DNA of 64,000 bases from Halobacteria archaeon AArc-dxtr1. Its GTDB lineage: Archaea > Halobacteriota > Halobacteria > Halobacteriales > Natrialbaceae. The first letter of the stretch is position 1. Every line of letters begins with the position of its first letter. The stretch is from positions 248,001-312,000 of the forward strand of contig JAOPJY010000001.1 in assembly GCA_025517425.1 (NCBI GenBank), written 5' to 3'. The notes below the pieces were generated by a model. It was not told where the DNA came from and made no database searches. It worked only from the letters and a program-made list of their open reading frames with translations. Below, piece by piece: positions 12,010 through 14,436 of this stretch. The position numbers were made by a program, and so were the translations under genes.

Positions 12010-12335
12010 TGGTCGACGTTCGTCCCCGACCGATAAATTCGGTCCGATCTCATCTCCTATAATAACTGACTTCGGTATCGAAGCCACCTGCTTTTGCTGG
12101 TCTAACCACTGTGTTACACTGAAGCAATGGTTCGAGACCACCGAGGATCGACGTCGGCGCGACCCGCCGGCTCGCACGCGTCAGTCGGTTCACACACGCC
12201 GGCCAGTTCGGGCAGACCAGTCGACTCGTGCGTGCACGTCCGGCTGTGGCGTCTGGCCGGTTCGTATGCGTCGTCCGGCTGTAACCGGTCGCGCTCCGGA
12301 ACCGCTGCGCGCTTTGCCGGCGCTCCGTGGGTGTG
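12010..12335. other. Intergenic region with no recognised gene
   Basis: 326 bp between divergent genes (DUF457 on minus, HTH on plus). A 69-codon plus-strand frame at 12127 has arginine/serine-rich content unlike local proteins. The right half holds degenerate short repeats of a GCCGGTTCG-like motif. It probably carries both promoters; no clear TATA box stands out before 12336. Confidence 0.4.
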
Positions 12336-13001
12336 ATGAGCGTCATCGCCACCGTCTGGGTGCCCGACGAGACCTTCTCGCTCGGGTCGTCGCTTACCGA
12401 GACTGGTGCGTCCCTCGCCGTCGAACCGACCGTTTCGACCGGCGGATCAGCGGTTCCCTACCTCTGGGCCCAGACCGCCGACCCGGACCGCCTCGTCGCG
12501 GATCTCGAAGCCGATGCGACCGTCGCGAGCGCGACGGTCGTCGATCGGGGTGACGGCTACGTTCTCGTCAAATTCGCGTGGGCCGAGCCGGTAAACGGCT
12601 TTCTCGGCGCGATTCGACGCAGTGACGCGCTCGTGATGAACGCAGTCCGAGGCGGAGACGGCTGGCAATTTCAGCTCCGCTTTCCGAGCTACGATGCGAT
12701 CTCCGCCTTCTACGCAGAGTGTCGTGAACACGAGCTCTCGATCGACGTCAGACAGCTTTCCGAAACCGTCGCCCCCGGTGAGGGAGAGCGGTTCGGACTT
12801 ACCGAGCCCCAGCGCGAACTCGTCGTCGCCGCCTACGAGGCCGGCTACTTCGACGTTCCGCGGCAGACGACGCTCGTTGAACTGGGCGAGCAGTCGGGCA
12901 TCTCAGACGTCGCTGCCTCCCAGCGCCTTCGGCGCGGACTGCAGTCACTCGTCGGCTCGACAGTTGCGCTCGGAGCCGCCGACGCAGACGAAGAATCGTA
13001 G
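12336..13001 (+). CDS. Bat-type helix-turn-helix (HTH_10) regulator
   Basis: 221 residues. The C-terminal 60 residues are an HTH_10 domain: LTEPQRELVVAAYEAGYFDVPRQTTLVELGEQ, a turn, then a recognition helix with SQRLRRGLQSLV. This domain defines the bacterio-opsin-activator family of haloarchaeal regulators. The N-terminal ~150 residues form the usual partner domain (VIATVWVPDETFSLGSSL, VVDRGDGYVLVKFAWAEP) thought to sense a ligand. ATG 12336 is preferred to GTG codons at 12327-12333. The target genes are unknown. Confidence 0.88.
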   Translation: MSVIATVWVPDETFSLGSSLTETGASLAVEPTVSTGGSAVPYLWAQTADPDRLVADLEADATVASATVVDRGDGYVLVKFAWAEPVNGFLGAIRRSDALVMNAVRGGDGWQFQLRFPSYDAISAFYAECREHELSIDVRQLSETVAPGEGERFGLTEPQRELVVAAYEAGYFDVPRQTTLVELGEQSGISDVAASQRLRRGLQSLVGSTVALGAADADEES

Positions 13002-13114
13002 CTCACGGGCAATCAACTGGCTAGCTCTGGTGAGGTGACCGACGCCAAACCGTGGGTTTTCACGCAGTGAACTGAGCAACAGGACTCAGGTCCGTCTGGA
13101 GTGAGCTATCGGCA

Positions 13115-13699
13115 ATGACACTCGATCCCACGAGGCGACAGTTCGTTTGCGTCTCGAGTGGAGTCCTTGCCGCGGGTCTCGCAGGCTGTCTCACGGAGGC
13201 CCAAACCACCCACTCGACTACCCAACGGAACGAGTCTGACGCGATAGGCGGATCAGTTGATTCGGGACAAACCGAATCGGGACCGATCGACGACAGATCG
13301 GCTGCAACTATCGTCGACGACCGCGACGAGAACGTTCGTTCGGATGGTGACGTCGTGGTCACCGCCGACGGTGGGCTCGACGGAAACCTTCGTGCCGACG
13401 GCTCAGTGGTCCTCGAGAGCGGCGCTGCAGTCGATGGGAACGTCACCGCTGCTGACCACGCACTGCTCGACGGTGGTACCGAAATCGACGGCAATCTCGA
13501 GGTCGGAGGCGACGTGTTACTCAACAGAGATGCAGCCGTCGACGGGGCGAGCGTCGATGGAAATCTCTCTGCGGGCGATACCGTTCGTCTCGGGACAAAC
13601 ACCGAGATCGACGGAAACGTCTCCGCTACCAGCGTACAACGCGCCTCGAGTGCCACTGTTGCCGGAAACGTGACTGGAGACACGACGAGAATTGAGTGA
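13115..13699 (+). CDS. Tat-exported lipoprotein with bactofilin-like beta-helix repeats
   Basis: 194 residues. Residues 1-26 give a Tat-type signal (TRRQF, then a hydrophobic core) ending in lipobox LAGC, so the mature Cys26 is probably lipidated. After an acidic Ser/Thr-rich linker, residues ~75-190 are tandem short repeats built on a DGNL/DGNV turn (for example GLDGNLRADGSVVLESGAAV), each one rung of a right-handed beta-helix. The spacing recalls polymer-forming bactofilins, but on the outer face of the membrane rather than in the cytosol. No enzymatic motif. It is flanked by an HTH regulator and a UDG-like gene. Confidence 0.8.
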   Translation: MTLDPTRRQFVCVSSGVLAAGLAGCLTEAQTTHSTTQRNESDAIGGSVDSGQTESGPIDDRSAATIVDDRDENVRSDGDVVVTADGGLDGNLRADGSVVLESGAAVDGNVTAADHALLDGGTEIDGNLEVGGDVLLNRDAAVDGASVDGNLSAGDTVRLGTNTEIDGNVSATSVQRASSATVAGNVTGDTTRIE

Positions 13700-13776
13700 G
13701 AGAGCAATCGAGCGCCGTTCGTTGGTGTTGTAACGCTCTCGCATCGCCGCGTCGACTATGCCGAACCGCGCGAATT

Positions 13777-14436
13777 ATGAGCACCCATCGTCTCCAATCA
13801 GCTGTGAAGAACGTCACCGAGCGGACAAGCAATCCTTTCGGCATGCGCCCACCATACGAACGGCAAGGTGAGGGCGCCCGTCCGGCCGCATTCGGCTACG
13901 GCGACGCCAACGCTGACTTCCACCTGATCGGCGACCACCCCGGCGTCCACGGCGGCGAGATGACGGGCGTTCCGTTTACCGAAACCGAATCGGGCCGGGC
14001 CGTCCAGGCCGTCGCCCGCGAGCTCGGCTTCGTTCGCGGCGCTGCCGACGAACCCGAGCTGGAGAACCTCTTTGCGAGCTACATCCATATGTGCACACTC
14101 GCGGACGGTCGGAGCCCGACCGCCGAGGAGTACGCCGATCTCGAGCCGTACTTCGACGCGGAGCTGCGGGCAATCAACGCACACATTCTGATCCCGGTCG
14201 GCCAGCGCGCGACCGATCACGTCCTCCGCGAGTATACGACCCGGCGCGGACGGCTCGACCTCGATATGGCCACACTCCACGGCCGCGAGATCCGCGGGCG
14301 CGGATTCCTGGTCGTCCCGATGCGCGATCCTGCGGAGTGGGAGCCAGGCGACGAGGACCGGATCGTTCCGGCGCTTGCAGCCGTCAAGGCACGAGACTAC
14401 CGCCAGACGAAGGGAATTCCGACGCTGGTCGGCTGA
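13777..14436 (+). CDS. Uracil-DNA glycosylase family protein (haloarchaeal)
   Basis: 219 residues. The pattern FGYGDANADFHLIGDHPGVHGG resembles motif 1 of UDG-like folds, followed by VPFTET, a helix and ILIPVGQRATDHVL, the equivalent of the central strand with the G-x-x-A motif. The classical Fe-S cysteines of family 4 UDGs are absent. The catalytic residue cannot be assigned with certainty, so it may be a glycosylase or a non-catalytic homologue. ATG 13777 starts it. The convergent Y-family polymerase gene begins its stop codon one base after this gene ends. Confidence 0.72.
   Translation: MSTHRLQSAVKNVTERTSNPFGMRPPYERQGEGARPAAFGYGDANADFHLIGDHPGVHGGEMTGVPFTETESGRAVQAVARELGFVRGAADEPELENLFASYIHMCTLADGRSPTAEEYADLEPYFDAELRAINAHILIPVGQRATDHVLREYTTRRGRLDLDMATLHGREIRGRGFLVVPMRDPAEWEPGDEDRIVPALAAVKARDYRQTKGIPTLVG

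Follow-up and report, generated by a model that had tools for sequence, protein, structure and literature searches.

Among the closest described systems to the protein considered here is halofilin B (HalB) of Haloferax volcanii, which Curtis et al. are said to have placed, in 2024, on the outer cell surface and which is reportedly held by membrane helices. Halofilins are archaeal bactofilins, and HalB was found at negative curvature, according to an excerpt of the report (PMC12186497). Bactofilins, which assemble into non-polar filaments with no need for a nucleotide, have been studied mostly as internal scaffolds. TtBac of Thermus thermophilus is a cytosolic protein, bound to the inner face of the membrane by an N-terminal peptide. 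The typical bacterial bactofilin is likewise cytosolic and lies on the inner membrane face by means of a short N-terminal peptide, while about 3.2% have membrane helices, as stated in an excerpt of another report (PMC12448750).

The window analyzed in this work is a stretch of 64,000 nucleotides from the genome of Halobacteria archaeon AArc-dxtr1 (contig JAOPJY010000001.1), and all positions below are counted from its first letter. At 13115..13699 on the forward strand, where all features of the gene also lie, an open frame of 194 codons encodes a protein of 194 amino acids, predicted to be exported by the Tat system, anchored by a lipid, and folded as a bactofilin.

Predicted Export and Lipid Anchor

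The initial annotation had described a Tat lipoprotein, and the N-terminus agrees with this description. Both elements of a haloarchaeal Tat lipoprotein, as the motif is generally defined, are present, namely the twin-arginine motif and the lipobox cysteine (TRRQF...LAGC). The predicted Tat signal peptide comprises residues 1-24 (13115..13186), in which PTRRQ (residues 5-9) is followed by a hydrophobic run that ends in LAGC; this lipobox occupies residues 22-25 (13178..13189), and Cys25 is predicted to be lipid-modified. These assignments were made by eye and by pattern match. Twin-arginine signals are present in the collected members of the family, of which 19 of 29 have a lipobox (counted by pattern, in L117 by eye) and the other ten an export signal without the cysteine. 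The Tat route is used by 78-87% of putative haloarchaeal lipoproteins, according to an excerpt of the work of Storf et al. 2010 (PMC2945643). The window protein would be exported and carry its lipid anchor on the outside of the membrane.

Between Cys25 and the beta-helix lies a non-repetitive linker of about 35-40 residues; the part at residues 26-58 (13190..13288) is rich in S, T, and D and belongs to a region of low model confidence (pLDDT <50 over residues 18-55). At its end stands the putative N-cap motif PIDDR (residues 57-61; 13283..13297), which is common to one branch of the family and leads into a short helical turn at residues 61-63 in the model. F, W, and Y are all absent beyond residue 30.

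Five N-x-S/T sites occur in the mature protein, one at residue 39 and, within DGN/AGN turns, four more at residues 109, 150, 168, and 185. The mean expected from shuffling is 1.9, and five sites were reached in 201 of 10,000 shuffles. Across the 29 members, the number of sequons per whole protein ranges from 0 to 5, with five found only in the window protein and in L084. As a sign of glycosylation, this excess is suggestive, not strong.

Repeats and Predicted Fold

Residues 65-194 (13307..13696) are assigned to a right-handed beta-helix of the bactofilin type on the basis of Pfam, an AlphaFold2 model, and VIA-align. The turns of the mature part read DGNL, DGNV, or AGNV, with the turn glycine at residues 90, 108, 126, 149, 167, and 184, which gives spacings of 18, 18, 23, 18, and 17. 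The repeat has a period of 18, with an identity autocorrelation of 0.262 at this lag compared to 0.100 on average after shuffling (z 5.5); none of 10,000 composition-preserving shuffles reached this value at lag 18, and none of 2,000 did so when all lags between 3 and 44 were considered. The Pfam family PF04519 (Bactofilin) matches with 41.9 bits (E 1.2e-10; cut-off 27.9) and also matches all nine of the aligned family members, while in shuffles of residues 56-194 it was found in none of nine at E<=1. Since the shuffles reach neither the lag-18 autocorrelation nor PF04519, compositional bias was ruled out as the source of the repeats, a concern that the initial annotation itself had raised. 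No NCBIfam model matched the window protein.

One rung, at residues about 140-149 (13532..13561), is shortened: in the tblastn alignment, it lacks 13 residues that are present in the closest relative found, in frame, which leaves the spacing of 23 and is accompanied by a dip in pLDDT. The claim that the mature part consists almost entirely of DGNL/DGNV rungs is therefore correct as to the period-18 repeats, but it overlooks the linker and this shortened rung.

The AlphaFold2 model, built with a three-row alignment, has pLDDT >=90 at 100 residues, and its stretches below 50 all precede residue 56. VIA-align was run on the 177 chains ranked highest by Foldseek. The best row is the filament subunit of the Thermus thermophilus bactofilin TtBac (6rib_A), with Z 15.7, an rmsd of 1.3 A over 100 of 101 residues, and 22% identity, about 3 Z units above the second row. 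Other bactofilin rows are BacA (2n3d, Z 12.6) and TtBac (6ria, Z 12.6), and the tapirin/adhesin chains 6n2b (Z 12.8) and 4wa0 (Z 12.7) are also near the model. In Foldseek's own scoring, no chain matched the window model at E<=0.001; the probabilities for 2n3d (0.66) and 6rib (0.51) are among the highest in the rows listed. The model of a second family member, from Natronoglomus, aligns best with 6rib_A (Z 14.4, rmsd 1.4), with the adhesin beta-helix 4wa0 at 13.7, less than 1 Z from the best row.

Sequence-search matches of the window protein include LpxD and GlmU, which could point to an acyltransferase-like protein with a left-handed hexapeptide-repeat helix, misread as a bactofilin. The rmsd to the model is about 11 A for such enzymes and between 1.3 and about 3.5 A for right-handed helices, so that the helix is read as right-handed. 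On this VIA-align result, the acyltransferase-like candidate was rejected; the window protein also has no catalytic domain and is apparently exported, and the probability that we leave to this reading is negligible. The predicted model contains a right-handed, triangular beta-helix of about 100 residues, as in bactofilins, and shows no globular, non-helical fold. The likeness to bactofilins proposed at the outset is thus upheld by both Pfam and the model, and the assignment of the window protein to the bactofilin fold is supported at the level of prediction.

The C-Terminal Rung and Polymerization

The last rung, from G167 to G184 (13613..13666), has 17 residues, as does the final rung in 24 of the 29 collected members, the window protein included; most other rungs have 18. 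In the profile alignment to TtBac, TtBac residue 104, where the alignment ends, is opposite profile position 192; F105 therefore falls at Val182, and the residue ranges from VIA-align agree with this placement. The phenylalanine that is conserved at the C-terminal interface (F130 in BacA, F105 in TtBac) is accordingly absent from the window protein, which has Val182 instead. Among the 24 of the 29 collected members whose last rung was placed at the C-terminus, the site is occupied by Val in 20 and by Ile in 4. The BacA variant F130R showed no polymerization, according to an excerpt of the report (PMC12448750). This phenylalanine is a conserved residue of bacterial members and not a strict criterion for the bactofilin family. 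By eye, the cytosolic paralogue in the same genome has Ile at this site too, so the phenylalanine is possibly dispensable in haloarchaea. Judging from the aligned sequences, members of the Tat family have kept the layout of the helix end and lost its aromatic residue.

A rung-by-rung count in the other family members gave about 5 to 13 rungs per member (the spacings of the window protein were taken from its turn-glycine positions). Members of about 290 amino acids are L082 (G028:C9), L083 (G312:C2), and L038, the last from a Halomontanus rarus plasmid; L082 has an inner rung of 17 residues resembling the last rung, as though two helix units were fused.

The main rival to a filament-forming protein is a lipid-anchored beta-helix that does not polymerize and acts as a stiff rod, as a spacer, or as a surface lipoprotein with an adhesive function, with the bactofilin fold serving only to present exposed loops and glycans. 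Val or Ile at the polymerization site would suit such a protein, as would the PIDDR motif, which could close one end of the helix, and the variable number of rungs. The strong likeness to extracellular tapirin/adhesin beta-helices, the five sequons where 1.9 are expected, and the ten of 29 members without a lipobox, which may be released, point in the same direction. Nevertheless, the best structural match is a bactofilin filament subunit, and it extends over the whole length; the last rung and the end of TtBac are laid out alike; and the Ile of the cytosolic paralogue suggests that these proteins may not need the phenylalanine. We regard the non-polymerizing protein as rather unlikely, although it deserves to be taken seriously. 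For the polymerization of the window protein itself, the predicted fold and end layout speak in favor and the loss of the phenylalanine against, and we consider the two sides to be in balance.

Paralogues and Genomic Site

A profile search of the genome revealed three bactofilin loci, the window gene and two others. The second bactofilin (C1:1168582-1169370) has two repeat stretches and no signal, as a cytosolic protein would. The third (C1:1637280) combines a Sec-like signal and a beta-helix repeat with several membrane helices; it reached 34.4 bits with PF04519 in the genome profile search, yet Pfam hmmscan at E<=0.1 does not list it. Each of the genus mates G001-G003 has one frame of about 293 amino acids and one of about 390 and no third bactofilin. 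The window copy is an extra one beside the two bactofilins that are common to its genus mates.

These paralogues bear on the question of whether the window protein is a plain orthologue of HalB, which is itself reported to be a surface bactofilin. C1:1637280 is a different locus of this genome, and its bactofilin, which combines a Sec-type signal with several membrane helices, has the architecture attributed to HalB; a second bactofilin frame, ~390 amino acids long, is present in each of the genus mates as well. The Tat family is rare (21 of 391 genomes of the class), whereas, at the level of the order, 283 of 292 genomes have PF04519 proteins. Simple orthology with HalB is thus very improbable.

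The gene is preceded by a BAT/HTH_10 transcription regulator (12327..13001, forward strand), identified by domain search, and followed by a gene for a uracil-DNA-glycosylase (UDG) superfamily protein (13804..14436, forward strand). The start of the latter is probably 13804, which is conserved in the sister species, and not the upstream GTG at 13696. The stretch 13002..13762 (no strand assigned, right edge approximate) is absent from the sister species and is a probable insertion between both neighbors. In G001, G003, and G004, the UDG-like gene directly follows the BAT regulator, with ~60 to 116 bases between the matched blocks as against ~790 to 840 in the window; G002 could be compared on the UDG side only, and the completeness of G004 is 83%. 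GC content is 0.600 over 13002-13802, and the GC3 of the gene is 0.634 versus 0.759 and 0.783 in its neighbors. Because the site is empty in three sister species and GC3 is low, horizontal acquisition is probable, with the gene as an accessory to the pair of shared bactofilins. Gain is the simplest reading, the alternative being loss in all sisters. The genome of the window (G000) is unusually small, at 2.8 Mb with 98.8% completeness, compared to 4.1-4.7 Mb in near-complete genus mates.

Distribution and Signs of Decay

The family of Tat-exported bactofilins is sporadic. Within the taxonomic family of the window, 117 genomes that are >=90% complete were searched with a profile of nine members, and in 20 of them a piece reaches E<=1e-24 and a match extends into profile positions 1-5 (a manual count among the matches listed). 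When genomes were drawn from the whole class, 21 of 391, the window's own included, reached E<=1e-24, and 19 of these belong to the same taxonomic family. As to the two matches outside it, the G112 protein has a Tat signal without the cysteine, and the G045 protein has no signal; the latter locus (L010; G045:C1:2147521-2148267), from another family, is a 308-aa frame with a long run of similar rungs and without an export signal. These figures come from the genome profile search; a separate contig scan gave two loci. Relatives were found in Natronoglomus mannanivorans and Natronorubrum texcoconense and on plasmids of Halomontanus rarus and Haladaptatus halobius; they point to Natrialbaceae as the taxonomic family of the window. 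One scan of viral contigs, with a query that reaches close relatives only, gave no viral relative among 21 pattern matches.

No conserved partner gene emerged: none of nine neighboring window proteins had a match in 20 relative loci (tblastn, E<=1e-6). Outside those 20 loci, the stretch of L110 (G030) contains a homologue of the left-hand BAT regulator; since BAT-type regulators are numerous in haloarchaea, this was taken as chance. In ten loci from five genera (L076, L077, L080, L088, L089, L090, L107, L108, L109, and L111), the Tat bactofilin lies in a context of Nudix, zinc-type dehydrogenase, and prolyl-tRNA synthetase genes, which does not occur at the window locus. At L074, L075, L078, L079, and L081 (three genera), it adjoins a PAP2-superfamily phosphatase; this context is also absent at the window locus and the orientation of PAP2 varies, so no functional link was drawn.

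Six close pairs of family members have dN/dS values of 0.14-0.33, indicating purifying selection; between the window copy and its closest relative found, the G029 copy L086 (G029:C1:1826843-1827464; 76% identity over the repeats), the value is 0.38. L086 is broken by a frameshift and a TAA stop and has Tyr in place of the lipobox Cys. A short remnant, L037, on the Halomontanus rarus plasmid NZ_CP135524.1, is annotated as 'polymer-forming cytoskeletal protein', and the frame upstream of it contains stops. The window gene might accordingly be a recent gain that has no lasting function and is heading to decay, a reading favored by these two broken relatives, the shortened rung, a dN/dS above that of the six other pairs, the empty sister sites, and the low GC3. 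Its frame is nevertheless intact, with the signal, lipobox, and last rung retained; the difference in length is in frame, and dN/dS is well under 1. Decay appears unlikely to us.

Proposed Role

The explanation we prefer, to which we give an even chance of being correct, is that the window protein is a lipid-anchored surface bactofilin that stacks into a scaffold on the outer face of the membrane. The Tat system would export the protein already folded, the lipobox cysteine would be lipid-modified, and, on its linker of ~35-40 residues, the right-handed beta-helix with its approximately seven rungs would sit in the space that separates the S-layer from the membrane. The helices would probably stack by their ends, and perhaps also along their sides, to give filaments or patches that are short and static and could act as an outer-face scaffold, as reported for HalB, held by a lipid instead of by membrane helices. 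Export, anchor, and linker may be derived from the sequence and established pathways. An effect on the shape or stiffness of the envelope is doubtful.

A more speculative extension, which we consider improbable, is that the Tat bactofilins of haloarchaea in this family amount to a mobile cytoskeleton module outside the cell, which moves between genomes, alternates between lipid-anchored and released forms, and builds a scaffold within the S-layer or beneath it. In the window protein, the DGN-L/V-S/T rung corners would then form a ladder of N-glycosylation sites and make it a glycan-bearing filament on the membrane. Interchangeable anchors (a lipid or none), beside membrane-helix and cytosolic types in one genome, would make it possible to test whether one filament fold shapes cells from both sides of the membrane. 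The same set would let one ask what an accessory, gained bactofilin copy adds.

Comparison with Known Systems

The initial annotation knew of no described role for such a protein, and in this respect it has to be corrected: halofilins are archaeal bactofilins, HalB reportedly acts at the cell surface of Haloferax volcanii, and relatives of the gene on Halomontanus plasmids were already annotated 'polymer-forming cytoskeletal protein'. A patterned layer, as the initial annotation envisaged, is conceivable, with Val in place of the classical polymerization phenylalanine speaking against it. The idea of a surface bactofilin is not new because HalB has already been described in haloarchaea; the predicted combination of Tat export and lipid anchoring represents a variation on it. 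A literature search that covered few papers beyond their titles and the beginnings of abstracts, mostly non-subscription ones, found no lipid-anchored bactofilin.

The window protein departs from the typical cytosolic, peptide-bound layout of bactofilins in having a Tat signal and a lipobox. With TtBac (6RIB/6RIA), it shares a right-handed beta-helix that superposes at 1.3 A over 100 residues and whose last rung aligns, but the C-terminal interface of TtBac has Phe105 where the window protein has Val182. Caulobacter BacA (2N3D) has the same fold (Z 12.6); it is cytosolic and has the membrane-targeting peptide MFSKQAKS and F130, as given in an excerpt of its description (PMC12448750), in place of which the window protein has the Tat signal with lipobox and Val182. 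The Caldicellulosiruptor tapirin/adhesin proteins (6N2B and 4WA0) resemble it in their right-handed beta-helices, as judged from low rmsd and the Z scores given above, yet these helices are larger and 9-15% identical to the window protein. Tapirin/adhesin beta-helices are extracellular and are not known to be lipoproteins of this type. With HalB, the likeness is that of an archaeal bactofilin with a putative place at the cell envelope; the window protein differs in its Tat signal and lipobox and in being a sporadic, extra copy in a genome that also encodes a membrane-helix bactofilin, a comparison made with the membrane helices reportedly present in HalB and at the level of architecture.
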